Positions 19,126 to 60,209 of a stretch of 64,000 nt of DNA are shown here, piece after piece. The DNA comes from Antedon mediterranea. Its lineage: Eukaryota > Echinodermata > Crinoidea > Comatulida > Antedonidae. The position numbers were made by a program, and so were the translations under genes. The stretch lies in NCBI RefSeq assembly GCF_964355755.1, contig NC_092670.1, positions 17,235,201-17,299,200 on the forward strand, given 5' to 3'. The notes below the pieces were generated by a model that saw only the letters and a list, made by a program, of their open reading frames with translations, made no database searches and was not told the DNA's origin. How positions within the stretch are numbered: position 1 is the stretch's first letter; the number at the start of each line of letters is the position of its first letter.

Positions 19126-19999
19126 TGATAAAGAATGAATATGCATGTTATAAAATCAAGGCTGAACAAAAATGGGCTAATTTCAAAGAAAAACAGATTT
19201 TATATTAATTTTTAATGGTAAAATATTAAAGTGTATGTTTTTTACATTATGTATACTTGTGGCTGTTCTTCGAAAGAGAACACAGAAATACTTGTACATG
19301 TCAACTCAACATCTTATGTTTATGTTCAATATCCAAACTACACCATTATTTCTACTTTTTAAGGATTATGCTAGTTTGTTTGTTTGTTCGTATATTTATT
19401 TAGACTCTGTACTTATATTCTACAAATGTGGTCATGTTTTTATGACAACGTAATTTATATTTAAATACTGTATCAAAAACGATACGTTTTTTTAAAGATA
19501 ATAGTTGGAAGAACCCACAAAAGACAAAAAAACATGTGATTCAATCCTGGGAATGATTAAAACATTAAATACAACTTACTGTACTATAATTATGTTTTCC
19601 TTACCATGTAATCAAATTGGCTGGGTATCTTTCACACTTCATTGCACTTTAATTTTAACAATTACAAGAACATATATAGTTGATTAAAATAATTTTGAAT
19701 TCAAGTTTGAAACTCTATCTTAACAGAATATTGGTTAATGCTTATGCGTTCGTCCGTTGCTATGGACGCATCCAGCTAATTTGAGCGTCATCGGGTGTTT
19801 TCTATAGATCACGGTAAGCATTGTGTTTAGTGTGTTTTTATTGTCTACTTTCAAAAGCCAACAAAATCTATTTAATACATTAGTTATATTTTATGGTATT
19901 TTATAACTATATGGATATCGATGTTTTAAAAATACGTTTTAGTCGTGGTAGTACGGAATAATTACATACCATTGATTTGTCGTTGTCGCTCTGGTGTAA

Positions 20000-20150
20000 A
20001 GCTCTGTCTACACTATCAAAGTTCTTTGTGACATAACAATACGATGCGCCCATATATGGACATGGTGATGTCATATCACTACCATTGGGAATTTGGGCAC
20101 ATCACACTTTTTTTGTCAACCTAGTTTGATAGTGTAGCCTAGACAGAGCT
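20000..20150. mobile_element. MITE-like element, AGCTCTGTCTACACTATCAA family, complete copy
   Basis: A 151-bp palindromic element flanked by TAA on both sides. The left end is AGCTCTGTCTACACTATCAA; the right end is its inverse with a two-base change (GTGTAGCCTAGACAGAGCT). The interior carries GTGACATAAC, GATGTGCCC-like and CATATATGG blocks shared by all copies. Further copies in the window are at 37775, 51690, 52295, 54649, 55963, 57432 and 62796. No open reading frame; non-autonomous. Confidence 0.8.
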
Positions 20151-20603
20151 TAAGAGTGTTCCTACCAGTTCTGCTCTTTCCCGTGGGTTTCTACTTTAAA
20201 ATTGGTAATTTTTAGTTCTCCTCCTTTGGAACATAACACCCCTATTCAGGAGACTTCCATATTAAATAACACATTTTGTTAACCGAACGAGAGGCAATAT
20301 ATGTTTCAACACTATGGGCAACACCTATTAAGACAGGCACATTGTTGGGTCTTGAGAAACTGCCCCTTTAACAGTAGTTCTGTCTGTATACAGTAGGCCT
20401 AATTTCTGAAAATTGTTAATACAGTGTTTCTGTCTTCGAAGCGTAATGATTGTAAACAAAGCACTATTAATGATATAATTATTATGAGGCTTGTCCTTGT
20501 AAACAGCTTCCATTTAAACGACGGTTTAATAATGATATCATGTTAATGCTTTGTTACAATTTACATAGCGTATTTGCAGCATCAGAACATAGAGAAACAG
20601 CCA

Positions 20604-22862
20604 TTAAAGTGTTAATTCAATCATCCGAATTGTATGGTTACCAGGGAGATGAGACTGACCAATCGACGACGAGCCAGCGTCAAACATCTTTAAAGGTATA
20701 TGGCAACATTTCAGTTTCCATTTGTGCAACAAATGCACAATATCAAAATCCGAGCTACATAAATATAAGAAAGAGTACATTTTATTAGTAGGTGTTAAGT
20801 TTAAAAGAAAGAAAAATGTACATTAATAATAGTAGTTAAGTTTGATATTATATTTTGCTTCCATGTAAATAAGAAGCTTTCGATTTGTGTTAACCTAGAT
20901 CCCTAGTATAGAATTCAAGTAAATTATGCATTTCATCATTTTTCCATTTGCCTTCCAGCTCTGAAATATATTTTTTTTTAAACAAAAAATAGGTTAAAAT
21001 GCACATGTTAAAAATAGGTTAAAATACACATGATTGCGATAAAAGAAAGCTATGGTCATGTTCTGGACCTAGAATCGACCAAATTGGGTTCAGCAACTTG
21101 ACAAAAATTGCTAAACCAAACTCATATTAATGACGTCATAGGTCATTGCAAAATAACAAGTTCCCTAATATAATGGTGTAGTACAATGATGATTAATAAA
21201 GTATATCTTACATCCTTTCTTGATAGGTAATCCAACTCTTTGAATTCTTGTATCTATTTAGTATAAATGCAACAGTGACAAGTACATCTTCAAAATCTAA
21301 ATTGTAAAAAATGGTTAATACTGTATTAATGAAAAACAAAAGAAAATATTATTCAATCTAATTTTTAAATCAAAGGTGTTGGAATGTTCAATAATACAAG
21401 AATATTTTTGTGAATTACTCTTACTGTATAACTATATATAGTTTTATTCCAAAATTGTTTATATCTCTACCAAGCTACCTTCTTTGTTTTCTACTCTTAT
21501 TCAGACTCCACCCTGCCTCCTTTTGTTGTATTTCTTTTATTCCTGTCTACCCAGGCAGCACTTGCCAGCTCTTATACAATTACGTTATTCAAATTCCTTC
21601 ACTTGCACTGATGAAGGGCTAGTGTTGCCGAAAGCTCTGCTAACTTTTATGGCTGTTTTACTTATCGTTTTGATTTAGCTTTTTTTTTTTTTTTGTATCT
21701 CCATTGAGATCCAGCCACTGATACCCACAGTCATTTTTTCAGTAATTTGCCTTTGGATGTATAACTATATATAAAAACAAATTTCCTACCTTTTTCATCA
21801 TAAAAACAGTCACTGGCTAACACAATGTCAACGTGTGGAAGATTGAGAAGAGCTAATGAATACTGACCCCAAGTTATACCAACAAAATCCACTTTGTCTA
21901 AAACTTGATTCTCTTTACAACTTCTCTTGCTATGTTCAATGCATTGAGGAAATAAACTGTTATCCGATAGGGTCACATTAGCTCCCAATTTAGAAGCTAA
22001 TATACCTGGTAGACTTGTCCCAGCACCTAGCTGTAAAAAATATGTTGAAAATAAATGTCTCAAATGGCTTGTTGTTGGCTCTGTTTTTTAATGTATTAAA
22101 AAGGGTTGTCAAATTGCATGCAGCTTAGGGTTAAACACATTGCTAACCTATGTATAAGTACTGTACCTCGAGTATGAACTTTGTTTTAATATAATCTCTT
22201 CTGTTAACAATATACTGCGCCAATACAGCTGCTGCAGGCCATGTATACATGCCATAGCGAGGGTCAAGAATCTATAAAAACAAAATAAAAAGATGCGGTA
22301 CTAATACTATAATAATATTATTGCTGAAGAAATCTTCAATTCAATACAAAATATTTAAAATGAACAATAAACGCACCAGGCCATTCATTCTAATAAATAA
22401 GGCAAATACTATTATATATGTTATATATTATTATGTTATTGTTATGTGCAATTTGAACGATTTTTTAGAAGTTTTATGTTTATTTAGAGCGCTCAGTTAA
22501 AAAAACTAAATTCTGGTGGTAAATAAAAGCCACAAATAATAATAGGTTTGCATTATGTAATAAATATACAATATAAAACCCAATAAATCCTTCCTATGCC
22601 TAGGCCCTTGGCTCAAGGGACACAAACGATATCGACCACCCAGCTGGCCATGCTTTAGATAGCCTAGCCTCTACTAGCTAGGCCTAGGCTAGGCTAGGCC
22701 TATAGGCTATATAATACTAGTAGTAGTAGACCTAGGAGGCCTAGAAAGCTAGAGTTAATGTTTACTGTATTTGTTTGTATATACCTCTGGGATGTTTATT
22801 TCTATCTGTTGTTCATTACATAAATCGAAAACAAACTTTCTTTTCATGCATTTTTCATCCAT
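20604..22862 (-). CDS. METTL23: METTL23 methyltransferase
   Basis: S-adenosylmethionine-dependent methyltransferase of the METTL21/METTL23 group; mammalian METTL23 is reported to act on histone H3 arginine. Five exons join without phase conflict: 22785-22862, 22167-22271, 21790-22030, 21212-21296 and 20604-20754, giving 219 codons plus TAA. The start is ATG at 22862, then MDEKCMKRKFVFDLCNEQ. Exon 2 gives DPRYGMYTWPAAAVLAQY, strongly METTL23-like. Exon 3 carries the SAM-binding glycine loop LGAGTSLPGILASKLGA, acidic motif II (LSD), and ASDCFYDE with a DxxY motif. Exon 4 reads DFEDVLVTVAFIL and SWITYQER. Exon 5 reads HKWKLKCCHIPL and ends LPGNHTIRMIELTL. The length is close to the mammalian protein as I recall it. 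Intron 1 next to the start exon is packed with TAGGCC words (22660-22753). It is a lone gene with no evident link to its neighbours. Confidence 0.93.
22660..22753. repeat. Cluster of AGGCCTA / CTAGGC words
   Basis: About 90 bp made almost wholly of overlapping CTAGGC, TAGGCCTA and GGCCTAGG words plus a short (AGT)n run. It sits 30-125 bp downstream of METTL23 exon 1. A similar cluster lies at 60090-60150 beside WDR35 exon 1. It is consistent with nested TAGGCCTA scars that then decayed (see findings). Confidence 0.6.
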
Positions 22863-23478
22863 TCACATGAAATCAAGATTTCGCGCGGACTTTCCATCAT
22901 TTCCTTCTCTCTCAACAAAACCAGTCATGCGTGTTATTTACAGTTTTGTGTTTCGATTGGTACTTTCAGAAGTCATTCGACTGGAATATTTATAAACTTT
23001 CTGATATTTCACAAGTAATGCTTTTCACGTTTAAAATAAAACTCAACTATTTCGCTTTTTAAAAATCAACCCTATTTTATTCTACTCCAATGGACCACAA
23101 GAAAATAAAATGTGCTACACAGTTTCAATATAAACCCACGGGGTGTCATACTTAATGTTTCTACGAAAGTGTTCTGTTGTCCAAAAATGAAAAACAAAGA
23201 TGAATATGCTTTAATAAAGTTATTACTTCATAACTTAAAAAGACATACTGTATAAGTCCTATTAAGGGGACACGGGACCTTAAAAAATGGGTTCATACTG
23301 GAAAATGTCCCGTGAATAGGAGTTTCCCAAAGAAATGGTTCTACTATTATACAGCAACAAAAACACTGTCTAAGTTTAATCAGACAGAAGTAATGATCAC
23401 TTTGTCGATCCAACGTTTAGGTTAAAACGAATAACTATTATAATAACATTAAAAAATAGCCTATTATATTTTACACTT

Positions 23479-26400
23479 TTAGAGATAACATTCTTCCTCG
23501 TATTTGTCTTTTTGCTTCTTCCGTTCTGTGTATGGAATTAATCTAGGATAAAGCAATATTATACCAATTCCCATAGTACTTATTATTATACAACTTGAGC
23601 CAAATGCCCACTGAACGCCGTATTTGAAATATGCAAATCCACCATATAAAGATCCTATCAGCCTGCCGATATTCCCCATAGCACTAAACACACCCATACA
23701 AATACCCTGTGAAAAAAAAACACAAGTACTGTAATTTTTATACAGTAGAGGCCTAATACATTATATTATACATATATTCATTTTCATCCGTACACAAACT
23801 TCCAGTAATATATCATATCTTATGGTTGACTCTCTCAACTTTTAGGCCTACGTATCAATAATGAGCAACTGTTTACCATGATCAAACACTACGATGTTTA
23901 CTTAATTATTATGTTTAACCATACAGTATAGTCTATTATAACTTAATAATACTTTTATTGGTTTTGTTGTCATTTGCTATAGACATAGGCACAATTTATA
24001 TTGTTTATTCTTCACATGTTCCCCTTACAAAATGATAACTTGATAGGCTTTCTACAGAAGTCTGTGATTGTTTCTTATTTTTATCTCTGGACATCCAAGA
24101 TTATTCTTTTTGATTTTAGTTTAAAATACCTGATGTTTAGGTTGTAAGGTCTTGGCATAAATAAAGAATGCTGTACTTTGTAACATTGGGTACCCAAAAC
24201 CTTGAATACTCAAAGCTGTCACGTATTGGGCTACTGGCATAGCTGGAGTAGAATCACACCAGGAGTACTTCCATGGGCATCCTCCCTCACCAATATTAGC
24301 AGACGTTCCATTTACATCTAAAATAAATACAATATCAATGACCGTCATTATATTTATATATATATAGTTTGGTAACAGGGGGTTCTACTTGTAATAAGCT
24401 ATGCTTCAGAGATTCCCCCTTTCCATTCTTATGTTTTGGAAATAAAAAGAAAGAAGATGAAGAAAATGATGACGCGCGGCGGCGTACAAAGCGTTATCAA
24501 CGTGTCACATTCCTGTCTCTGGTGTCACTGACTGACTGACCTAGCGATATACCAACTTCTCGTGACCAACCAAATGACGTAATTAATATTTGAATAAACA
24601 GCAATATTAGTTTACTATCATGCAATAATAATATAGTTTATGTTTTTATTGATTTACTTAGAGAGTATAATAACTACATTTGATAGACAATGATGTAAAC
24701 ATAAGTCGACAAACAAACCTATAGTGGGTCTTTCAAGTGACCCAGGACCAAACGGGATAAGCAGAACTGAGCTTATTATGGTTAAAACCATTCCAATTGA
24801 TAACGAAACACGCTCATCAATTCTAAAAGAAAGTAACAAAACTATAATGTGAATACAATTGTCATAAATAAATAATATAATAAGATTTTAAAATAGCTAA
24901 ACAATCACGTATTAGGTCTACAATGAAAAATCTAATGTGGCTTTTAGTAGGCCTATAATAATATGCAAATCAACAGCAATCACTCTTACTGGATTCGTTA
25001 TCTCGTCACGTTTATTTTTATACTTACAGTTTTGATGTTTTCCCCAATATCATCACAACAAAAATAGCGAGGCCAGCTAATGTAAACATTATCATGCTAA
25101 AATTACGTGTTGCTAATTGTCGACTCCATCCAAGTATGTGCATTCCATACGGTGCTGCCACTCTAAAATATAATGAAATTGTTTGTTTTGTTTGCTTCAT
25201 TAATTTTCCACACATCCAACAAAAATACAACATATATTTATATAAATAAAACATGATAACAATGTGCGAATGGAGATCAAAATATGTAATAGTTTGTTGA
25301 CATGACAAGTAAACTAAATTTACATAAATAAGTTTTTCACCATAACAATCTAAATCATCCACATCGACCATTCATAATCGATCATTTTCACCAAGCGACA
25401 ATTATCGACCACACACTTCCTATTGTCAGGTTCATCATTCAAACTTAAGTTTTAAAGAATTTCCCTTAAGCCTAAAACATCAATAAACAATATATAAAGA
25501 CCACCCTAAAATTAACATTAAAGGATTTTTCTTATAAAGTGGTATTCACAAAGGTTTTATGGTTAAGTGAATTCCAAAAGTAAGTTATAATTTATTCAGT
25601 TTCAAGAAGACTCAAGAGTTTAAAAAGACCGGGTTCCAAAAGACCAAAACGCCGAGGCATTCTTCATCTTTACTTTTCCTTTTAGAACACACCACCGATT
25701 ACCGCAAACCTGCAGGCCTACTAATTTATTTTACTCACGTTGATTTTACTCCAAAGGTAAAGACGGTGGCGGCGAAAAGAAGATTCAGAAACACGGTAAC
25801 AACTATATCAAGACCAGAAAACCACGAAACCTTCTCAACTGATGACTCTTCTACTGATGATGAATCTTCTACTGATGGCGAAAAACAAGTACATGTCACC
25901 GATCAGCAACACAAACGTTCATGTGGGTATTTCTATTTTAAAATTATAACTTTAGGTCTACTTCATAGTCATAAGGATGAGCAATAAAATGTCCAAATTG
26001 GAATCTTTACCTTGTTTTAAACGCGTTATTTCACTTGTAGTGATGTCATCAACATGTACTTCTTTGAACAAAAATAAGATACACACCAGCGTTAGGCTGA
26101 CCAAGAGTACGTTGGTGACTGCAGGCAAAGTGTAAACGTTTAAGCTCATGGTTGAAATTGTAAAACCTTCCTCTCCAATTGGAACATAGGCCATTTGTAA
26201 AACTATCAACAAAACAATACAAGAAATGCAAGTTGTTTATGCCTATTACATTTTTAAAAAATGAATTCAATTCAAGGTAACATTTATTTCTTTCAAAACA
26301 AAATAACAATAAGAAAGAACAGTTCTTCTAATTTACAAATATTTTGAGAATGAAACAGACTGGAAAAGAAAAAAAACCATTTCTTTAAATTTTGAAAGAG

Positions 26401-27819
26401 GCAAAGCCAAAAAATGATACTTGCATTGTTCAATTACAGCTTTAGATTTTTAATTGTAAGGTGGTCAAACTAGTTGAATACGAAAAAAAGGTTGAAATGT
26501 TACCTGGTCCCACTGTATAGCCAAGCATTTGGGCAGCAACAAAATGAGACGTAGCTGTAGTTCTCTCAAGTATGGTGGTACCGACAGATAAGTATACTCG
26601 AGCAATCGCTAAGCAACCTATTATTCAAATTCAAATTCTAATTTATTCACCTTCCTTTGGAGAAACATATAAAAACTGTACAATAAAACACAACAAAATG
26701 AAGATTCACACGAATCAAAAGATTAAAAAGGTTTTAACAAGTTAAATAAAGTGTCAAAAATTGTGAAAAATGGCAGACTTAACGCTATCTATCATAGTTT
26801 GAGAACAATAATAAGTCGTTACACATTGCACACAATGTATTAAAGGACATATAGAATATTAAATCTTTGTATACCTCCAGAAATTCCAGCTAAGGCTCTT
26901 GATATGTAGACTAAAGTAATTTGTTGAGACTCTATATGATATGGAATCACATAAACTATATTGGAACCAAGAGCAGCAATACTAGTTATTATTAGCGGAA
27001 TTTTACAGCCAATTCTACTGCTGACACTACCACAAGTAATACATGACACTAATGCTAACAACCCCTGCATTCCCGTTAGTTGCCCCATTACGGTCGTCTC
27101 AACATCATCATCCATCTGAAATTGTAAAAGTAGGCCAAGCGTTAACATATAAAACAAAGATTTAATTGAATGCGATTGTGTTCTAATTATGACACGATTT
27201 ATAATACAAGATGTTCGTTTTGTTTTTATAGAAATTATTATGAATGGAAAGGTTTTGCTATGGCTTTCATTTTATCTCTTATCATTTATACGGCTTAATA
27301 ATTATCAATTATCAATCAATAGTTATCAATTATGGGATTCGGTTTAATAAAAGTTAACAATGAAATTTATCAATTACAGTATCCATACACTTTCTATTGT
27401 CTTTGCTGTTATACAATGCTACGGCAAACTTAATATTACACATATTTATTGTACACAAATAAGGGAATAAATAAAGTAAATAAATTGTTTAGAGTCTATT
27501 TAAACGACTGTTTTAAACGACTCCATGGGCTATTCCGATGGCAAGAAAGCGAAATGTATTGTTCTTTTCATAAAAATATATAATAAAATGACTTACATAT
27601 TTCAAATACGACCACATTGAAGTTAGAATAATCGAGTTGGCAAAAGCCTCGCAAAAGGCAACAATGTACATGGTGCGTATGGAGTGCCATCGTCGTTTAA
27701 GTTTAGTCGAGCTTCTGAAAAGATGAAAATATTAAATGTTTATTTTTTTCTTTCATTATTTCGTATTTACTTTTATGATCAATGTATTACCTAGTGTATT
27801 CTGAGTTCGAATCAAGCAT
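23479..27819 (-). CDS. MFSD8: MFSD8/CLN7-like lysosomal transporter, tandem copy A (intact)
   Basis: Major-facilitator-superfamily membrane protein like human MFSD8 (CLN7), a lysosomal protein reported to conduct chloride. Ten exons join in phase to 493 codons plus TAA: 27791-27819 (ATG at 27819, MLDSNSEYTR), 27597-27714, 26875-27115, 26504-26617, 26011-26202, 25739-25871, 25028-25162, 24719-24822, 24130-24317, 23479-23706. Motifs seen: RRWHSIRTMYIVAFCEAF (first helix), ISRALAGISGG, RVYLSVGTTILERTT, LQMAYVPIGEEGF, VAAPYGMHILGWSR, GGCPWKYSWCDSTPA (a luminal Cys pair as in MFSD8) and MGVFSAMGNIGRLIG. Twelve hydrophobic segments are expected for the family. The protein is shorter than copy C, mainly at the N-terminus. 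Intron 3 carries about 160 bp not found in copy B. It is the downstream half of a head-to-tail duplication with copy B. Confidence 0.9.
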
Positions 27820-28799
27820 TTTAAGCGTTTAGGCCTATATGAATAAAACAACGTCTCGTTCACAGCATCGGCTGGCAATGTGTAAGGTGAGCCGATCATG
27901 CGCTACTACAATAAATGAAAATTCAAACATTGCCCCTATGTAATCTGATAATAACCTACTTTTAGATAACATGGTATATGGCCTACTATAATATATTACA
28001 CGGTTAGTGTGGAGATTCAAAATGTAAACTTTAAAAGTTCAAATCAAGCGATTATTAATTATAATACTTATTATATACTTATTAAATAATTGAAAAAAAA
28101 TGAAATACATTTTCCGGGCCCTAAATCTGCTTTTTGAATCAGCGTGTTTTTTAACATATTATTTGCAAAAGCCAGGTTCACTACTTATCAATAGCAAACA
28201 AACTAAATCAACGAAGATTGATTAATCTATAGTAAGTGTGAAATCTAGCTAGATCCCAATAAGCATCATGATGATCTTATTATATTGTTTAGTACTACGT
28301 CTCTAATATTATATCATGACACTAGGCCTACAGTCACAGGATTGAGTTGGGTTTGGTTTCCGAGTGCATTTTCTGCATTTTCAATGTGAAGTTGTATTAT
28401 AAATATTACCGAGTCAGTAATTCAGTTTTTGTTGTCTTTTGTGGTTAACCACCACCTTTATTCATTCAACCTTTCATACATATTTCATTCACATTTCATT
28501 TTCGTACAATAAATTACCGTTTTCTACTTTTTTCGTTATTTTCTGATTTTTACACTTTTTACCTTATACCTAGTGTTTTAATTTAAATGCATACAAATAA
28601 CCATACAAATCTACACTTCATAGTTGTTGAAAGTTTATAGTAAATTCCAAGCCCACCAAAAAAAAAACTAGTATGATAATAATACTGTACTATATAAACA
28701 CGAACATATTTTGAATATAAAAAGTATACCGTTATAGGCCTACTGCGCCTAAATATAGCACAATCCGATCATTTCAGACAAAGGTGATTATATAATTAT

Positions 28800-28833
28800 G
28801 CACGTGATCGCCTTTTGTTATATTATGACGTCA
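28800..28833 (-). promoter_or_regulatory. E-box and CRE upstream of copy A
   Basis: GCACGTGA (28800-28807) and the palindrome TGACGTCA (28826-28833) lie about 1 kb upstream of the copy A start. Both are kept at the same spacing in copy B (34540-34573). CACGTG is the core of the TFEB/CLEAR element that controls lysosomal genes in mammals, and TGACGTCA is a CREB/ATF site. Function is inferred from conservation and gene type only. Confidence 0.45.
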
Positions 28834-28894
28834 TTTTGCTTAATAAAGTTATTCAGTTAGTTATTCTCCTCAGAATAAAAATACATACGGTAGA

Positions 28895-29011
28895 ACTCCT
28901 ATTAAGGGGACACGGGACACGGGACACGGGACCCCCCCCCCCCCCCAAAATGGGTTCATACCGAAAAATGTTCCATGAATAGGAGTGTCCCAAAAGAAAT
29001 GGTTCTACTGT
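28895..29011. repeat. GTAGAAC...GTTCTAC dispersed element
   Basis: Inverted-repeat element whose ends read GTAGAACTCCTATTAAGGGG and GGTTCTAC, containing ACACGGGAC and TGGGTTCATAC. A related copy is at 23255-23343 in the other duplication unit. In this copy ACACGGG is triplicated and followed by a C16-17 run (28931-28946). No coding capacity. Confidence 0.6.
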
Positions 29012-29422
29012 AATAACGTTTACATTTGACCAGGTACACAGTATGACTCGTGTTTGTTGATCCAACTTTTGGTCAAAGTGACTTTGATATTAAAAAATTG
29101 TCTAGGTATTCAACACTTTTAGAGATAACATTCTTCCTCGTATTTGTCTTTTTGCTTCTTCCGTTTTGTGTATGGAATTAACCTAGGATAAAGCAATATT
29201 ATACCAATTCCCATAGTACTTATTATGATACAACTTGAGCCAAATGCCCACTGAACGCCGTATTTGAAATATGCAAATCCACCAAAAAAAGATCCTATCA
29301 GCCTGCCAATATTCCCCATAGCACTAAACACACCCATACAAATACCCTGTGAAGAAAAAACACAAGTACTGTAATTTTTATACAGTAGAGGCTAATAGTA
29401 ATACATTATAATATTATACATA

Positions 29423-29466
29423 TAGCGCTAAATACACCCATACAAAGACCCTGTGAACAAAAAACA
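29423..29466 (-). repeat. Stray copy of the exon 10 acceptor region
   Basis: About 44 bp repeat the first bases of copy B exon 10 together with its acceptor (on the plus strand CACCCATACAAAGACCCTGT matches CACCCATACAAATACCCTGT at 29331-29350). It lies some 75 bp upstream of the true acceptor at 29347. Copy A has no such fragment. Confidence 0.7.
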
Positions 29467-32400
29467 AAAATAATGTAATGTTTATACAATAGAGGCCTTA
29501 TACATTATACATATTCATTTTCATCCGCACACAAACTTCCAGTATTAATTTTTTATATATATCCTATGTTTGACTCGCTCAACCAACTTTTACATATCAA
29601 TAATGAGCAGCTGTTTACCATGATCAAACATTATGTTTACTTTTTACATATTTAATCCTCAGTCTATTATAACTTTCCATAATAAATTTGTATTAGTTTT
29701 AGTGTCATTTGCTATAGACATAGGCCCAATTTATATTGTTTATATTTCATCGCATGTTCCCCTTATAAATGATAACATGTATAGGCTAGAGAAGGTTGTG
29801 ATGATTATTTATTTGTATCCCTGGACACCGCCGAAGTTCATTCATTCTGATTTTAGTTTAAAATACCTGATGTTTAGGTTGTAAGGTCTTGGCATAAATA
29901 AAGAATGCTGTACTTTGTAACATTGGGTACCCAAAACCTCGAATGCTCAAAGCTGTCACGTATTGAGCTACTGACATTGCGGGAGTTGAATCACACCAGG
30001 AGTACTTCCATGGGCATCCTCCCTCACCTATTAGCAGACGTTTCATTAACATCTAAAATAAATACAGTATCAAGGACCGTCATTAATATTTATATATATA
30101 GTTTGGTAACAGGGGGTTTCTCCCTTTCCATTCTTATGTTTTGTACTATGATTATTTATGTATGTTTATGATTATGTGAATGGATATAAAAAGAAAGAAA
30201 TTGAAGAAAATGGATGACGCGCGGCGGCGTACAAAGCGGTATCAACGTGTCACAATCCTATCTCTTGTGTCACTGACTGACTGGCCTAGCGATATACCAA
30301 CGTCGCGTGACCAACCGAATGACGTAATTAATATTTGAATAAACAGCAATATTAGTTTACTATCATGCAATATTAATAGTAAATGTTTTTATTGATTTAC
30401 TTAGAGAGTATAATAACTACATTTGATAGACAATGATGTCAACATAAGTCGACAAACAAACCTATAGTGGGTCTTTCAGGTGATTCCGAACCAAACGGGA
30501 TAAGCAGAATCGAGCTTATTATAGGCCTAGTTAAAACCATTCCAATTGATAACAAAACACGCTCATCAATTCTAAAAGCAAAGTAAAAAAACTATAATGT
30601 GAATACAGTTGTCATAAGTAAATAATTAATAATGATAAGAAGTAAAAATAGCTAAACAATTATTAAATCTAATCTGGCTTTTAGTAGGCCTATATAATAT
30701 CACTATTACTGGATTCGTTATCGTCGCGTTTATTTTTATGCTTACAGTTTTGACATTTTCCCCAATATAATCACAACAAAAATGCCGCAGCCAGCTAATG
30801 CAAACATTATCATGCCAACATTACGTGTTGCTAATTGTCGACTCCATCCAAGTATGTGCATTCCATACGGTGCTGCCACTCTAAAATATAAATACTTATA
30901 TATAAATTGTTTGTTTTTTGTATGATTCAATAATTTTTCATATATTCAACAAAAATATACAGATATTTATATACATAAGACATAATAACAATGTGTGAAA
31001 GAAGATAAAAATAACTAAATACATTACGCATTGACCACCTAAGCAGTTGTCGACATGACAAGTAAACTAAATTTAAAAAACTCAGTGTGAATGATTAAAA
31101 TTCGATTCATTATTGACACAATTCTTGTACTCATTAATACGCATAAGTTTTTCATAATCGATCATTTTCACCTACGTGCCCATTATCGACCACCACCACT
31201 TCCTCGTTGTCAGGTTCAGATCCAGTGCCGTGTTCACCATTCAAACTTTAAATTCTAAGGTTTTTCCTTAGGCCTAAATCATCAATAAATAATATTTAAG
31301 GACCGCCTTTAAATCAACATTTAAGGATATTTGGTTAATTGGTTAATTTCCAAAAGGAAATCATAATTGTATAAAGTTTCAAAAAGACCCAGTTCCAGAA
31401 GAACAAAACGCCGAGGCATTCTTTATCTCTACTTTTCGTTTTTGAACACATCGATTACCGCAAACCTGCAGGCCTACTAATTTATTTTACTCACGTTGAT
31501 TTTACTCCAAAGGTAAAGACGGTGGCGGCGAAAAGAAGATTCAGAAACACGGTAACAACTATATCAAGACCAGAAAACCACGAAACCTTCTCAACTGATG
31601 ACTCTTCTACTGTTGATGAATCTTCTACTGATGGCGAAAAACAAGTACATGTCACAACAAAAACGTTCATGTGGATATTTCTATTTAAAAATTATAACTG
31701 TAGGTCTCAACTTCATAGTCATAAGGATGAGCAATAAAATGTCGAAAAGTTTAATCTTTACCTTGTTTTAAGCGAGTTATTTTACTTGTAGTGATGTCAT
31801 CAACATGTACTTCTTTGAACAAAAATAAGATACACATCAGCCTTAGGCTGACCAAGAGTACGTTGGTGACTGCAGGCAAAGTGTAAACGTTTAAGCTCAT
31901 GGTTGAAATTGTAAAACCTTCCTCTCCAATTGGAACATAGGCCATTTGTAAAGCTATCAACAAAACAATACAAGAAATTCAAGTTGTTTATTACGTTTTT
32001 AAAAATGAATGATATTCGCATTATTCAATTACAGCGTTAATCTCAGTGTCAGTATTGATGATACAGATTTTTAATTGTAAGGTGGTCAAACTAGTTGAAT
32101 ACGAAAAAAAGGTTGAAATGTCACCTGGTCCTACTGTATAGCCAAGCATTTGGGCAGCAACAAAATGAGAAGTTGCCGTAGTTCTCTCAAGTATGGTGGT
32201 GCCAACAGATAAGTATACTCGAGCAATCGCTAAGCAACCTATTATAGTTTGAGAACAATAGTGTAACATTAGTAAAGAAGTCGTTACACATTGCACACAA
32301 TGTATTAAAGGACATATAGAATATTAAATCTTTGTATACCTCCAGAAATTCCAGCTAAGGCTCTTGATATGTAGACTAAAGTAATTTGTTGAGACTCTAT

Positions 32401-33149
32401 ATGATATGGAATCACATAAACTATATTGGAACCAAGAGCAGCAATACTAGTTATTATTAGCGGAATTTTACAGCCAATTCTACTGCTGACACTACCACAA
32501 GTAATACATGACACTAATGCTAACAACCCCTGCATTCCCGTTAGTTGCCCCATTACGGTCGTCTCAACATCATCATCCATCTGAAATTGAAAATAAGTAG
32601 GCCAAGCTGATTACAAAATGTTCATCTGGTTTTGGATATTCATAAATTAATAGTTCTTTTCGAAAAAAACAAGAAACTACCTGTTTGACAATTTCGCTGT
32701 CTTTTCTTCTGAAAAAGCTGTCCGAGCAGGACAGCGAAACTGTCAAGCATTTTACAGTTTCGCTAATTTTTTTTTCTCGAAAAGAATTGCAAATTCAAGT
32801 AGAGTTAATATTAAAGTAAAATAAAGATGTAATTGAAAGCGACTGTGTGCTATAAAATATACAAGATATTCGGTTTTGTTTTTATAGAAATTATCAATGG
32901 ATTAAATGTATGCATTTTTATACTGTGGTACAACAATAAAAACTGAACATTAGGTTCATGGTGATACCGTTGCTATGGCTTTCATTTTATCATTTATACG
33001 TCGGCTTATTAAAAGTATAATACCGTATTCATACACTTTCTATTGTCTTTGCTCTTTTACAATGCTATACGAAAAACCTAATACACATATTTATTGTACA
33101 ATAATATAAGATAATAATTATAATAAATTGTTTAACGTCTACCAAAATC

Positions 33150-33437
33150 GACACCATGGGCTATTTAAACGACACCATGGGCTATTTAAACGACACCATG
33201 GGCTATTTAAACGACACCATGGGCTATTTAAACGACACCATGGGCTATTTAAACGACACCATGGGCTATTTAAACGACACCATGGGCTATTTAAACGACA
33301 CCATGGGCTATTTAAACGACACCATGGGCTATTTAAACGACACCATGGGCTATTTAAACGACACCATGGGCTATTTAAACGACACCATGGGCTATTTAAA
33401 CGACACCATGGGCTATTTAAACGACACCATGGGCTAT
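33150..33437. repeat. 21-bp minisatellite, 13 full copies plus one partial
   Basis: Unit GACACCATGGGCTATTTAAA + C, identical in every copy I read. It lies in copy B intron 2, about 100 bp from the exon 2 donor. Copy A has only one related unit at the same place (TTAAACGACTCCATGGGCTA at about 27513-27532). Because 21 is a multiple of three, plus-strand frames stay open and would encode MGYLNDT or RHHGLFK repeats. I regard these as by-products. Confidence 0.95.
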
Positions 33438-34382
33438 TCCGATGGCAAGTAAGCGAAATGTATAGAACTTTATTATAATATTTTAATCATAATATTTTTT
33501 TATTGTCATAAAAATATATAATAGCATGACTTACATATTTCAAATACGAACACATTGAAGTTAGAATAATCGAGTTGGCAAAAGCCTCGCAAAAGGCAAC
33601 AATATACATGGTGCGTATGGAGTGCCATCGTCGTTTAAGTTTAGTCGAGCTTCTGAAAAGATGAAAATATTAAATGTTTATTTGTTTCTTTAATTATTTC
33701 GTATTTACTTTTATGATAAATGTATTACCTAGTGTATTGGAGTTCGAATCAAGCATATTAAGCGTTTATATGAATAAAATAACGTGATCTCGTTTCACAG
33801 GAATGAGTGGCAATGTGTAAGGTAAGCCGATCATGCGCTACTACAATAAATGGAAATTTAAACATTGCCCCTATGTAATCTGATAATAACCTACTTTTAG
33901 ATAATATAGTATATGGCCTACTATAATATATTACACGGTTATAGTGTTGAGATTCAAAATGTAAACGTTAATTAGTTCAAATAAAGCGATTAAATCATAA
34001 CAAAATAAAATACATTTTCCGGGCCCTACATCTGCTTTTTGAATCAGCGTGTTTTTTACTGTAGACATATTATCTGCGAAAGCGAGGTTCACTACTTATC
34101 AATAGCAAATAAACTAAACCAACGAAGATTTATTAATCTATAGTAAGTGTGAAATCTAGCTAGATCCCAATAAGCATCATGATAGGGTGCGGTGATTGCA
34201 GTATTATTGTATGTTGTTAAATACCAGCCCTGTTTAGTACTATACCTTATTAATATTATATCGTGACAGTCACACGATTGACTTGGGTTTAGTTTCCGAG
34301 TGCATTTTCAACTTTCTTGCTTTTCTGCATGCTCAATGTGAAGTGGTATAAATATAACCACGTTAGTAATTCATAGTTTATA

Positions 34383-34412
34383 GTAAATTCTAAGCCCCCC
34401 CCCCCCCCACCT
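34383..34412. repeat. Poly-C run
   Basis: About 14 consecutive C between TAAG and ACCTAAAAAA. It corresponds to a CCCACC-AAAAAAAAA stretch in unit A near 28652-28668, so the C run has expanded in unit B. A separate G-rich run is in copy C intron 6 near 37995-38017. Confidence 0.7.
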
Positions 34413-34539
34413 AAAAAAAACTTAGTATGATAATAATACTATATAAACACGGACATATTTTGAATAGAAAAGGTATACCGTTATTCTGCGCCTAAATATA
34501 GCACAATCCGATCATTTCCGACAAAGGAGATTATATAAT

Positions 34540-34573
34540 TCACGTGATCGACTTTTGTTATATTATGACGTCA
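34540..34573. promoter_or_regulatory. E-box (TCACGTGA) and CRE (TGACGTCA) between divergent copies B and C
   Basis: TCACGTGA (34540-34547) and TGACGTCA (34566-34573) lie about 120-150 bp upstream of the copy C start on the plus strand and about 790 bp upstream of copy B on the minus strand. Both sites are palindromic, so they could serve both directions. TCACGTGA is the inner core of the mammalian CLEAR element for lysosomal genes. The duplication boundary falls right after the CRE. Confidence 0.5.
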
Positions 34574-34694
34574 TTTTGCTTTGTTAACTAATGCACCGTT
34601 ACTGCAATCTTGTGACCGCTTGACATTTTGTTTGATCTAGGCCTACCAGGGCTCTCTCGGGTCTATTTTCAGTTTGAAGCAGACAGATGCCCCA

Positions 34695-37600: not shown

Positions 37601-39793
37601 GCTGAAAATTAATGTTTACACATTTCCAGCAATAACAAACTTGTTTATAATCTTCATAAATTTAATTTTTGTTATATTTGTATTTCGCGAAATTCGAGTT
37701 CCCGATGAACCAGATCAGCACGCCAGCAAGCCAGATACCGATTGTTGTACTGGTAAGTAAAAAAATATGTTTAAAGCTCTGTCTACACTTTCAAATATAG
37801 TGTGATATGCCCAAATAAGGTAGTGATATGCCCAAATACGGTAGTGATATGACATTCATGTTCTATGGGCTTATCACAGACATTTAGAGATTTACGTCGT
37901 TTATGAAAAAACCGTCGTACAGTGTGAATTTTTCAGATAGATAACATTCCCGATCTGCTCAAACTTTCCTAAATGTCTCCAATAAAGCTTTTTGGGGAAG
38001 GGGGAGGGGGGGGGGGGCAAACTGCGATTTTGGTGTATGTCAAGTCACTAAATGTTGTTATCTCGGCAATCTGCAGGATTATTAAATATATTAGTAAATT
38101 ATTACAAAGATTATTTTATTCTCTATTCACGGTCAAGTTTGTATGATTTAACTTCTGAAAACGGGTAGACACTGCAACATTTTCTTTAACTATTCAAACA
38201 GGAGATCCTAACAAACCATTTGGTCTTCATGAACTTAACAATTATCATCATGGTCTCATCATTCTTCATTCATTCATTCAAATGCGGGTAACCGTAAAAA
38301 GAGGAAGACACTTCTATTTTTAATTTAATTTTAGAATATCAAATTGTTGGAAGTGAAGGAATGGTGCATATTGACATATCTTCAATAGATCTTCCGCTTG
38401 TTATGTTTTTAAATGCCGTTTATTGCGTTACTATTTTTAGTTTTGGATATAATACAACGTAAGTATGAAAACAACACCGTACACTTTTTAAACAATACAA
38501 ATATTAGTCTGTTGTAGATATACCGTTTCACTCGAATTATTAAGGCTAATTAAACAATTAAGTGTTTTGGGGGGTTACTCTATTTAGGATTGTCTCTCCT
38601 TATGGAATGCATCTGCTTGGATGGTCACGTGAAGAAGCTGTAGAGAAGAGTGGAATTATCGCATTATCATTGGCCATTCTCTCAATATTTGTTATAGCAG
38701 CGATGGGGCGTCTTTTAGAAAGGTATGATTATTAATACTAGGCATTTTATTGCTATCAGTATCCGCACAGTCACACAAATGCTAAAACGTTTAGGCCTAT
38801 TCTTTTTTCCAGATTTAAAGACCGTGTTTTTCTCGCGATCGGTATTATAATGATGATAATGTGTACAACGTTGGCTATTCCGATGGGTCCTGGCGTACCT
38901 CCTCGTCCAGGTAAGTGTAGTTTACAATTCTAAATACAAAATGTATTGTGGATGCGGGATTGGATGCCAAAGTGGACGATTAACGATTACCAGTATGAAA
39001 GAAGAACGCACACAAAATGTTCTCAAGAGTAGTGGTGTATAAGGACACAATTTTAATTTTAAAATACTTCATTAAGACTTTTTATTTTCAGATATAAATA
39101 TGACAACCAATAGTTCAGACGATGGTCAAGGCGGCTGTCCCTGGACGTACTCCTGGTGTGATACAACTCCTAGTATAGCCGTAGCACAGTATATTGTCTC
39201 CTTAAGTGTTCTAGGTTTTGGATATCCTATACTTCAAGCAATCACGTATATTATATATTGTAAAACACTTGGACCAAACCAACAGGTAAACTTAATGTTA
39301 GTTAATTTAATTTAAACCGTCCGTTTGTATTTGTTCAAGATTAGTTATTTGGGGTAAGTTGGTTTTTATGGCCACACTTATCGCTAACTTTTAGTGCAGG
39401 TAGGTAGGCGTGTGATCAAAGCCACGTGTGCACAGACAGCGAACTTTTGACGCGTGGTGTGTCGTTCCCGATTTGTCGGTGTTGTAGCGGTATTTTTCAA
39501 CGTCGTATTTCCACATACAATAGCAAGAACCGCCCTCGAAAATAACAATTTTGCACACTTGACTTGAGTATTTTATATTTTTTTAGGGACTGTTTCTAGG
39601 TATCTTTGGAGCCATGGGTAACACAGGCAGAGTTGTGGGGCCATTATTGGGCACATTCATCTACACTGAATTCGGAGTTCAATGGGCAGAAGGGTGTTTA
39701 CTTGCGCTACTTACCATAGTTGCAACTGGAGTATTTCCATTTTACAAAAGAATGGTGCCATATACGGTTTATCAAAAGAAATGTATTAGCTGA
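34695..39793 (+). CDS. MFSD8: MFSD8/CLN7-like lysosomal transporter, copy C (intact)
   Basis: Eleven exons join in phase to 518 codons plus TGA: 34695-34704 (ATGGAATTTG), 34877-34976, 35766-35895, 36353-36593, 36716-36829, 37549-37752, 38335-38458, 38588-38722, 38813-38910, 39092-39285, 39587-39793. The length matches human MFSD8 as I recall it. The N-terminus has an acidic/Leu stretch (ETTRLLDEEKETSYG), the place of lysosomal dileucine sorting signals in the family. Motifs: ARWKSIRVMYLTIFTEAV, ARALAGIQAG, RVYISEGTTLKERTQ, LQVAYVPIGETGWTV, VSPYGMHLLGWSREEA, GGCPWTYSWCDTTPSIAV, LGIFGAMGNTGRVVG. Exon sizes 241, 114 and 135 equal those of copy A, so intron positions are shared and all three genes descend from one. 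An out-of-frame ATG at 34687 precedes the chosen start. The gene is divergent from copy B and clearly more distant from A and B than they are from each other. Confidence 0.92.
35003..35540. repeat. 144-bp GA-rich minisatellite, about 4 copies
   Basis: A 144-bp unit (contains GGATGAGAATAAGACTGA, GATTCAGAAAGATGAGATGC, ACTCGAGACTGTAGTGATGA) recurs with marks at 35147, 35291 and 35435; the first copy, about 35003, is diverged. It occupies intron 2 of copy C, starting about 25 bp after the exon 2 donor. As 144 is divisible by three, the minus strand stays open for 205 codons (34959-35576), encoding a Leu/Ser-rich 48-residue repeat. No start context or homology supports a gene. Confidence 0.9.
35911..36235. 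mobile_element. MITE-like element, TTAAAGATGTA-TGTCCCC family
   Basis: About 325 bp, left end AAAGATGTACTGTCCCCAAA, right end CCAGGGAGATTTACATCTTT, both joined to TTAA. Shared internal blocks are CATGAAAAATGAAGATTAAT, CAATTTTTGG and TGGCATATT. It is in copy C intron 3. Other copies: 44963-45285 (reverse), 51054-51349 and 58597-58944. Confidence 0.75.
37775..37870. mobile_element. Partial CTCTGTCTACACT element
   Basis: The left terminus AGCTCTGTCTACACTTTCAA and the interior block TGATATGCCCAAAT occur, the latter tandemly duplicated. The right terminus is missing. It is in copy C intron 6, just after exon 37549-37752. Confidence 0.6.
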
Positions 39794-41648: not shown

Positions 41649-42948
41649 GAACGATCTCGTAACTGAACAATCTGAGCGATCTTGTATTTGAACAGCTTGA
41701 ACGATCTCGTAACTGAACAATCTGAGCGATCTTGTATTTGAACAGCTTGAACGATCTCGTAACTGAACAATCTGAGCGATCTTGTATTTGAACAGCTTGA
41801 ACGATCTCGTAACTGAACAATCTGAGCGATCTTGTATTTGAACAGCTTGAACGATCTCGTAACTGAACAATCTGAGCGATCTTGTATTTGAACAGCTTGA
41901 ACGATCTCGTAACTGAACAATCTGAGCGATCTTGTATTTGAACAGCTTGAACGATCTCGTAACTGAACAATCTGAGCGATCTTGTATTTGAACAGCTTGA
42001 ACGATCTCGTAACTGAACAATCTGAGCGATCTTGTATTTGAACAGCTTGAACGATCTCGTAACTGAACAATCTGAGCGATCTTGTATTTGAACAGCTTAA
42101 ACGATCTCGTAACTGAACAATCTGAGCGATCTTGTATTTGAACAGCTTGAACGATCTCGTAACTGAACAATCTGAGCGATCTTGTATTTGAACAGCTTGA
42201 ACGATCTCGTAACTGAACAATCTGAGCGATCTTGTATTTGAACAGCTTGAACGATCTCGTAACTGAACAATCTGAGCGATCTTGTATTTGAACAGCTTGA
42301 ACGATCTCGTAACTGAACAATCTGAGCGATCTTGTATTTGAACAGCTTGAACGATCTCGTAACTGAACAATCTGAGCGATCTCGTATTTGAACAGCTTGA
42401 ACGATCTCGTAACTGAACAATCTGAGCGATCTTGTATTTGAACAGCTTGAACGATCTCGTAACTGAACAATCTGAGCGATCTCGTATTTGAACAGCTTGA
42501 ACGATCTCGTAACTGAACAATCTGAGCGATCTTGTATTTGAACAGCTTGAACGATCTCGTAACTGAACAATCTGAGCGATCTTGTATTTGAACAGCTTGA
42601 ACGATCTCGTAACTGAACAATCTGAGCGATCTTGTATTTGAACAGCTTGAACGATCTCGTAACTGAACAATCTGAGCGATCTTGTATTTGAACAGCTTGA
42701 ACGATCTCGTAACTGAACAATCTGAGCGATCTTGTATTTGAACAGCTTGAACGATCTCGTAACTGAACAATCTGAGCGATCTTGTATTTGAACAGCTTGA
42801 ACGATCTCGTAACTGAACAATCTGAGCGATCTTGTATTTGAACAGCTTGAACGATCTCGTAACTGAACAATCTGAGCGATCTTGTATTTGAACAGCTTGA
42901 ACGATCTCGTAACTGAACAATCTGAGCGATCTTGTATTTGAACAGCTT
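41649..42948. repeat. 50-bp satellite, 26 copies
   Basis: Exactly 26 head-to-tail copies of a 50-bp unit starting GAACGATCTCGTAACTGAAC. I found only three single-base variants (42099, and C for T at 42382 and 42482). The unit is itself a dimer of two diverged 25-bp halves: read on the minus strand, GCTGTTCAAATACAAGATCG aligns with GATTGTTCAGTTACGAGATC. Fifty is not divisible by three and the minus strand has no stop in any frame. All three minus frames are therefore open across most of the array and encode the same 50-residue cycle from different phases, the longest 459 codons from an ATG at 42979. Confidence 0.97.
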
Positions 42949-44277
42949 GAACTACCTGCATTATGCCATTATTCTTCATACATTGCTTTCTGCATTTATA
43001 TATGTGAAATTTGGTCTATAATTAAAAAAAAACGTACAACATATTTTGTGTAAAGTTGATAAAGAAAATACTTCGCTACAAAATGGTATTGATAGGAGCT
43101 CTTTATCCAATCACACATTATCTTTCAAATATACATGGATTCCATAGAAATAAATATACATTCTGACAATTTGAATACGTTGACAAATATATACAGGTAC
43201 ATAAAAAGATATACTGTAGATATCTGGTAGGTGCATGCGTGTTACAATGACCGTTATATCGTTCCAGCGAACTAATCGTCGCAGATCTAAAGGCTGCTAC
43301 ACACTAGGACGATAACGATCAATAGATAAACATACTTTTTAAGGGTCTTGAGCACTTGTGGATATGTGTGCTTTATAAATCTTATCGTTTCTTACATAAA
43401 ACAACAGAAATTAGCAAAGTTTTCATCCTAAAACTATATAATAACCATCTATGCAATCAAATGACGTCATGATCAATAAAAACAATAAAATCGTTATATC
43501 GTCACGATATTATTGCTCTTACAAATCATGACGTTATTTGATTGGACTTGAAAGTATTATTTTCATAAAAGAATAAATGGTTATTCTATAGTTCTAAGAT
43601 GAAAACTTTTTTTGTTTTATTTTATATAAGAAAAATGCCTATTTATCTATTTACCATCGATCGTTTTCGTGTCAATGGGCCTGAACTGACTGTGTACAGT
43701 TGAAATGCATAAATGTATTATTACTGTATTTATTTAGAGCCTGTAGTAGTAGAGGATAGCAACAAAACATTTCTAAAAGTGAACCTAGAGTAACTGTAGA
43801 CTATGTCATGTGGTTAGCTGTTAAGAGTACTGTCAATACAATAACACATTATCACAGGATGATTGGAACTATACTACTCTCAGTTTACAGGACATACATC
43901 AATGGATGGATTTGTGCATGATACATATTATAACACAACTCTCATAAAATATTATATTGCTGCTTCTTTAAAAATGATAGCTAATCTATGTAAATGCATC
44001 ATAGTACTACAGTATATAAAATCACTTAACAAGAGGTTTTTACAGAAAAAAAGCAGGAGTAATCCATCAAGGATAGATTTTTTAGAACTATTCATAAAAA
44101 ATCATGGATTACTAAAACACATGAGGTATAACTTACAAGCACATAAGTCCAGAAATGTTGGGTTAGAGGTCAATTTACCTCCTAAATGTATTATGGGAAC
44201 ATATCACTTGTAACCTTGCACTGTACCACAAAAATCGTCCCTTTACAAGCAATATTTGACATATTATTATAATATTT
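42949..44277. other. Intergenic stretch between satellite and WDR35
   Basis: No gene is supported. It holds the long palindromic element at 43301-43680. Short open frames near 43863-44213 have no ATG-based coding signal or family resemblance. The WDR35 polyadenylation region should fall in the right part, but I see no clear canonical signal on the minus strand. Confidence 0.45.
43301..43680. mobile_element. Long palindromic MITE-like element
   Basis: About 380 bp with imperfect arms. The left arm has ACGATAACGATCAATAGATA and GTTTTCATCCTAAAACTATA; the right arm has the inverses (TATAGTTCTAAGATGAAAAC, then ATCTATTTACCATCGATCGT). The centre contains TGACGTCATGAT facing ATCATGACGT. No coding capacity. 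Confidence 0.65.

Positions 44278-44307: not shown

Positions 44308-60209
<15,902 letters not shown>

Follow-up and report, generated by a model that had tools for sequence, protein, structure and literature searches.

The 64-kb stretch of the Antedon mediterranea genome analyzed here, hereafter the window, harbors a tandem duplication whose units, A (23218-28841) and B (28859-34581), had been assigned to MFSD8 in an earlier sequence-only reading. That reading also drew attention to an 8-mer, TAGGCCTA, found in one unit where the other has TA, and every 8-mer it quoted sits at the coordinates given. Alignment of the two units, which are 86% identical over aligned bases, revealed six indels measuring exactly 6 bp; four are TA-centred (A 27830, A 28735, B 30522 and A 26238), and a fifth event, at A 23843, was smeared by the aligner and read by hand (CTTTTACATATC in B, CTTTTAGGCCTACGTATC in A). 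Unit A carries TAGGCCTA at 23843-23850 and 27830-27837, where B has TA, and at 28735-28742, where B has TT, a one-base variant of TA. At 26238-26245, already suspected to be a mutated case, A reads TATGCCTA against TA in B, being either a mutated copy or an end variant, and for the TAGGCCTA of A at 28323-28330 the state in B is as ambiguous after alignment as it had been by eye. The TAGGCCTA of B at 30522-30529, opposite position 24778 of A, sits in an open reading frame on the minus strand, which it lengthens by two codons for Arg-Pro (MVLT-RP-IISS versus MVLT-IISS in A). A neighbouring exon of A gives a weak match to MFS_1, under Pfam's gathering score, which bears on the MFSD8 assignment. 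A further TAGGCCTA in B (31269-31276) corresponds to a mutated TAAGCCTA in A, and one is common to both units (24948-24955 and 30685-30692), being older than the duplication or converted. Most copies in the two units are private to one paralogue. The same alignment contains two 5-bp gains of CTGTA at TA, which produce the CAG-type word TACTGTA at 28683-28689 of A and at 34057-34063 of B, each absent from the other unit; these had escaped the earlier reading, as had a TAGGCTA/TAGCCTA word of the 5-bp class at 20135-20141, in a AAGCTCTGTCTACACTATC MITE copy (match C1:17255315-17255349) at a site where other copies have TA.

Outside the duplication, TAGGCCTA occurs between 2502 and 18285 (at 2502, 3064, 4395, 4756, 6150, 13534, 15986, 17261, 17487, 17673 and 18278), at 20394-20401, directly past unit B at 34638-34645, between 38792 and 45910 (at 38792, 39840 and 45903) and between 60119 and 61026 (at 60119, 60410 and 61019). 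A nested cluster at 22660-22709 combines TAGGCCTA at 22679 and 22695 with TAGGCTA/TAGCCTA at 22660, 22685, 22690 and 22703. Altogether the window contains 29 copies, when first- and second-order Markov models predict 0.50-0.58 (about 0.6). The near-absence noted for 46-60 kb is real, with zero copies between 45,911 and 60,118; this part of the window abounds in MITE copies and tandem repeats, and TACWGTA is sparse there too (5, where the window average predicts about 11). At 41649-42952, 26 tandem copies of a 50-bp unit remain open for more than 450 codons in several minus-strand frames, and this array is probably a repeat rather than a gene.

The whole 354-Mb genome contains 128,871 exact copies of TAGGCCTA and 1,589 of the same word reversed. 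Considering that the reversed word contains a CpG and is a less fair yardstick, we relied instead on a third-order model trained without the motif, which for 231 kb of largely non-redundant sequence predicts 3.5 copies where 103 were observed. The excess is huge genome-wide. In the same sample, other GGCC-centred palindromes (AAGGCCTT, GAGGCCTC, CAGGCCTG, TTGGCCAA and others) are at or below expectation, and beyond the edges of the 8-mer just a mild G/C preference is seen at the adjoining base. One-mismatch forms show a surplus of about 46, compared to about 100 for the exact word, which, together with the private state of most copies in A and B, implies a recent process; among the variants, TATGCCTA/TAGGCATA was observed 19 times versus 7.8 expected. 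The doubled word TAGGCCTAGGCCTA occurs 3,605 times in the genome, approximately sevenfold above the number expected if about 33 million TA sites were hit independently, as estimated from the TA density of the sample, and this surplus needs clustering or slippage in addition. Where the doubled word turned up in viral contigs, it mostly stood alone. In the open-access literature, we found no paper that names TAGGCCTA as a repeat or scar.

To place the word among its relatives, the 231-kb sample was scanned exhaustively for TA-NNN-TA (32 classes) and TA-NNNN-TA (136 classes), counting distinct contexts. Only two three-base classes pass z=3, CAG/CTG (TACAGTA/TACTGTA, 153 versus 59.4) and GGC/GCC (TAGGCTA/TAGCCTA, 57 versus 20.0), the next-highest having a z of 2.8. 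GGCC, the core of TAGGCCTA, is by far the largest of the four-base classes (101 versus 3.5), and the others over z=3.5 are microsatellite-like words, with TAATAATA, TATATATA and TACTACTA among them. The scan therefore leaves three non-microsatellite outliers, TACAGTA/TACTGTA, TAGGCTA/TAGCCTA and TAGGCCTA. The cores CAG, GGC and GGCC gave nothing comparable between other repeated dinucleotides in this sample, which makes TA the specific context.

Given that the pair A/B is by itself insufficient to polarise gain and loss at most sites, the direction of change was taken from repeat families. A MITE starting AAGCTCTGTCTACACTATCAAAC is very abundant (window 19995-20151, 51687-57620 and many other places), forms 42-bp or 92-bp tandem arrays in places (C1:410893-412382, C1:1406560-1410607), and its word GCTCTGTCTACACTATCAAA, a 20-mer core, has 11,413 exact occurrences in the genome. 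Seven MITE copies, told apart by the sequence that follows, read GCTCTGTC-TAGGCCTA-CA... at one TA of the family, one of the seven with a further TATGCCTA nested within, and the copy at window 20135 has TAGGCTA at the family's TA. In a 367-bp repeat family, TAGGCCTA was gained by two members (L045 and L052), TACAGTA by one (L054) and TACTGTA by another (L055). LINE copies provide a TAGGCTA in L001 where others read TA, and another in L035-L037, near-identical copies that we counted as one event. At the polarised sites the change is thus a gain of AGGCCT at an existing TA, and the derived state has the insert between two TA copies that arose from one TA, as in Tc1/mariner-type footprints. The converse, precise loss between the two TA repeats, had been offered as the alternative; it would start from an ancient, formerly commoner word that shed AGGCCT, and it draws on the fact that A and B alone leave the two directions undistinguished at most sites; the MITE and the 367-bp family, however, have TA as the common state and the insert in single copies, a pattern that loss cannot yield. 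Precise loss is largely refuted at these sites and we give it hardly any credence overall. In three MITE copies (C1:25146588, C2:8813910 and C9:1033015) the family's TACACTA reads TAGGCTA, with CAC replaced by GGC rather than GGC inserted, which could represent a scar plus a deletion between TA repeats.

The CAG class offers a comparison with a known footprint. Counted on both strands of the genome, TACAGTA occurs 314,802 times, compared to 119,155 for the reversed word. The MITE has a second TA, at which the family sequence is CACTATC; about 14 copies show CACTACAGTATC there, and imperfect CAG forms such as TACAGGTA and TACAGGTATC are also found. No GGC scars were seen at this TA, so target choice is not the same for the two classes. 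The excision footprint of Sleeping Beauty is TAC(A/T)GTA (PMC3432063), and its excision leaves 3-nt 3' overhangs (PMC7827188). The genome contains at least 47 DDE_1 matches, and around one of them, at C1:22455894-22459122, lies a pogo-like element with TA flanks and perfect 26-bp terminal inverted repeats (CAGTCAACTCTCCCAATACCGGAC.., beginning CAGTCAACTC, with CAG ends), so that for this class a resident element has the core as its terminal bases. DDE_1 scores nearly equal to that of this element were obtained at C7:24065651 and C11:22016935, which suggests recent copies. A published footprint word, polarised gains and a CAG-ended element in the same genome indicate that excision scars of the proposed kind accumulate here, and TACAGTA/TACTGTA is a putative product of the same process acting on elements that end in CAG...CTG.

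By analogy, TAGGCCTA is probably the footprint that repair left after excision of a TA-specific cut-and-paste transposon of the Tc1/mariner/pogo type with GGC...GCC ends. Such an element would insert at TA and duplicate it, giving TA-GGC...GCC-TA. At excision, the second strand would be cut three bases inside each end, leaving a GGC 3' overhang on both flanks; the tips of the overhangs could then pair by their last two bases (GC with GC) with no mismatch, and filling one base per strand would produce TA-G-GC-C-TA, that is, TAGGCCTA. If all three bases paired and the G:G mismatch were tolerated, TAGGCTA or TAGCCTA would result. We infer the GGC-ended donor, the overhang length and the pairing of the GC tips from these products. 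Both predicted words are enriched, the mismatch-free TAGGCCTA far more than TAGGCTA/TAGCCTA, as would be the case if the same ends could be repaired in more than one way, although TAGGCTA could partly be TAGGCCTA minus one C. As a weaker point, TATGCCTA/TAGGCATA would follow from one end with another first base. The sequence-only reading had supposed instead that GG...CC ends left two bases each, as a Tc1-type 2-nt GG overhang would, but the TAGGTA/TACCTA predicted by that geometry is not enriched (46 versus 58.1 expected in 231 kb). We prefer the three-base GGC overhang because it fits both TAGGCCTA and TAGGCTA/TAGCCTA.

Of the transposon scar first suggested for the window, three points hold up: the excess, the changes of precisely 6 bp located at TA, and a form consistent with a cut-and-paste element that duplicates TA. 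The scar is what we infer from that form, given that no TA-GGC...GCC-TA donor was found in about 300 kb or among GGC-starting insertions at two MITE TA sites. For GGCC, then, no resident element sharing the core was identified in this material, which represents less than 0.1% of the genome, so that even a family with as many as a thousand copies might go unseen. A search for TA-bounded inverted repeats starting with GGC returned nothing beyond TAGGCCTA and one larger inverted repeat, in L011/L010, and recurrent TA-GG starts were only TAGGCCTA itself or LINE-internal sequence. Three GGC-starting sequences at MITE TA sites were rejected as chance matches, two (L065 and L066) having no MITE remainder within about 960 bp and the third (L074) lacking the MITE prefix. 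There are eight DDE_3 (Tc1-type) matches, and at the two loci checked no flanking inverted repeats were found; a Transposase_1 search gave no match, with its control likewise silent. On the genome scale, some 129,000 recognisable 6-bp scars (about one per 2.7 kb, in-frame codons included) may have been written by an unknown or extinct TA-specific GGC...GCC transposon, or by a donor-free insertion activity, with almost no full-length copies left, a broader claim that we advance tentatively.

The best alternative to excision is direct insertion, in which a recombinase, polymerase or terminal-addition activity puts AGGCCT into TA and no full-length element was ever there. It would account for the missing GGC-ended element (in about 300 kb and two MITE TA sites), for the sevenfold surplus of doubled copies and for the uniformity of the product, which is far greater than in usual natural repair and counts against excision. 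Even so, the companions TAGGCTA/TAGCCTA are a prediction of excision, and the word of the parallel TACAGTA class is that of an established excision footprint, with a CAG-ended element resident, so we regard direct insertion as unlikely. Slippage of (TAGGCC)n or (TAGGC)n, or a short templated duplication, could also make such words: doubled copies number in the thousands, TAGGC runs occur at window 22660-22709 and C11:397771, and the remaining over-expected TA-flanked words are microsatellite words. First copies, however, arise where the ancestral site is TA only, with no template near, and slippage leaves the use of TA alone among dinucleotides unexplained. Such turnover is thus unlikely for single TAGGCCTA copies and could well have produced some of the tandem ones; as a general explanation we consider it improbable. 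Still less probable is a protein-binding site multiplied or kept by selection, for which the perfect palindrome and its dense clusters at some loci would speak, given that the word appears in MITEs, old repeats, a satellite and an exon, in copies private to paralogues and with no conservation of the wider flanks.

The excision footprint that we favor resembles that of Sleeping Beauty, a Tc1/mariner element, in having a short insert between two TA copies, in that TACAGTA/TACTGTA is itself the second class found here, and in that 3-nt 3' overhangs with a central mismatch would explain two product forms. Here, in contrast, the center is GGC(C) rather than CAG, the donor is putative, and the main product has one base more, in line with pairing of the GC tips. 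Pogo/Fot-type elements (DDE_1, CAG ends) share the TA target and include the resident one with perfect 26-bp repeats, but CAG... ends cannot leave GGCC. The rice Harbinger terminal consensus GG(G/C)CC resembles the core of TAGGCCTA (PMC4423477), whereas PIF/Harbinger elements duplicate TAA/TTA rather than TA and TAGGCCTA has no fixed third base next to TA; other PHIS groups use AT, ANT, CWG or TNA targets (PMC4482050). Excision scars that can be counted between related sequences have been described among rice species, where they are varied and complex (PMC4423477), while one 6-bp product dominates here. The kind of event is already known; the word, the scale and the repair geometry seem unreported in the open-access literature searched.

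If the excision reading is correct, scars would rank among the main types of small insertion in this genome, on a par with other indels, each recording one past insertion and excision, and the regularity of the product would allow germline excision to be counted genome-wide without seeing the element. They would also show how ends with 3-nt overhangs are joined in nature, and would be a source of codons, as with the Arg-Pro of copy B. Motif finders and naive indel models would take such words for regulatory sites or microsatellites.

Local density varies: at L010, L013 and L067, TAGGCCTA, TAGGC, CTAG and GGCC words form dense clusters, above the density of random insertion. A 106-bp satellite array of about 65 units is present in L006 (C6:6000001-6010000) and L013. 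No TAGGCCTA was found inside the L006 array, which is consistent with a young array, and near position 988 of L013 a satellite monomer at the array edge appears to have gained TAGGCCTA.
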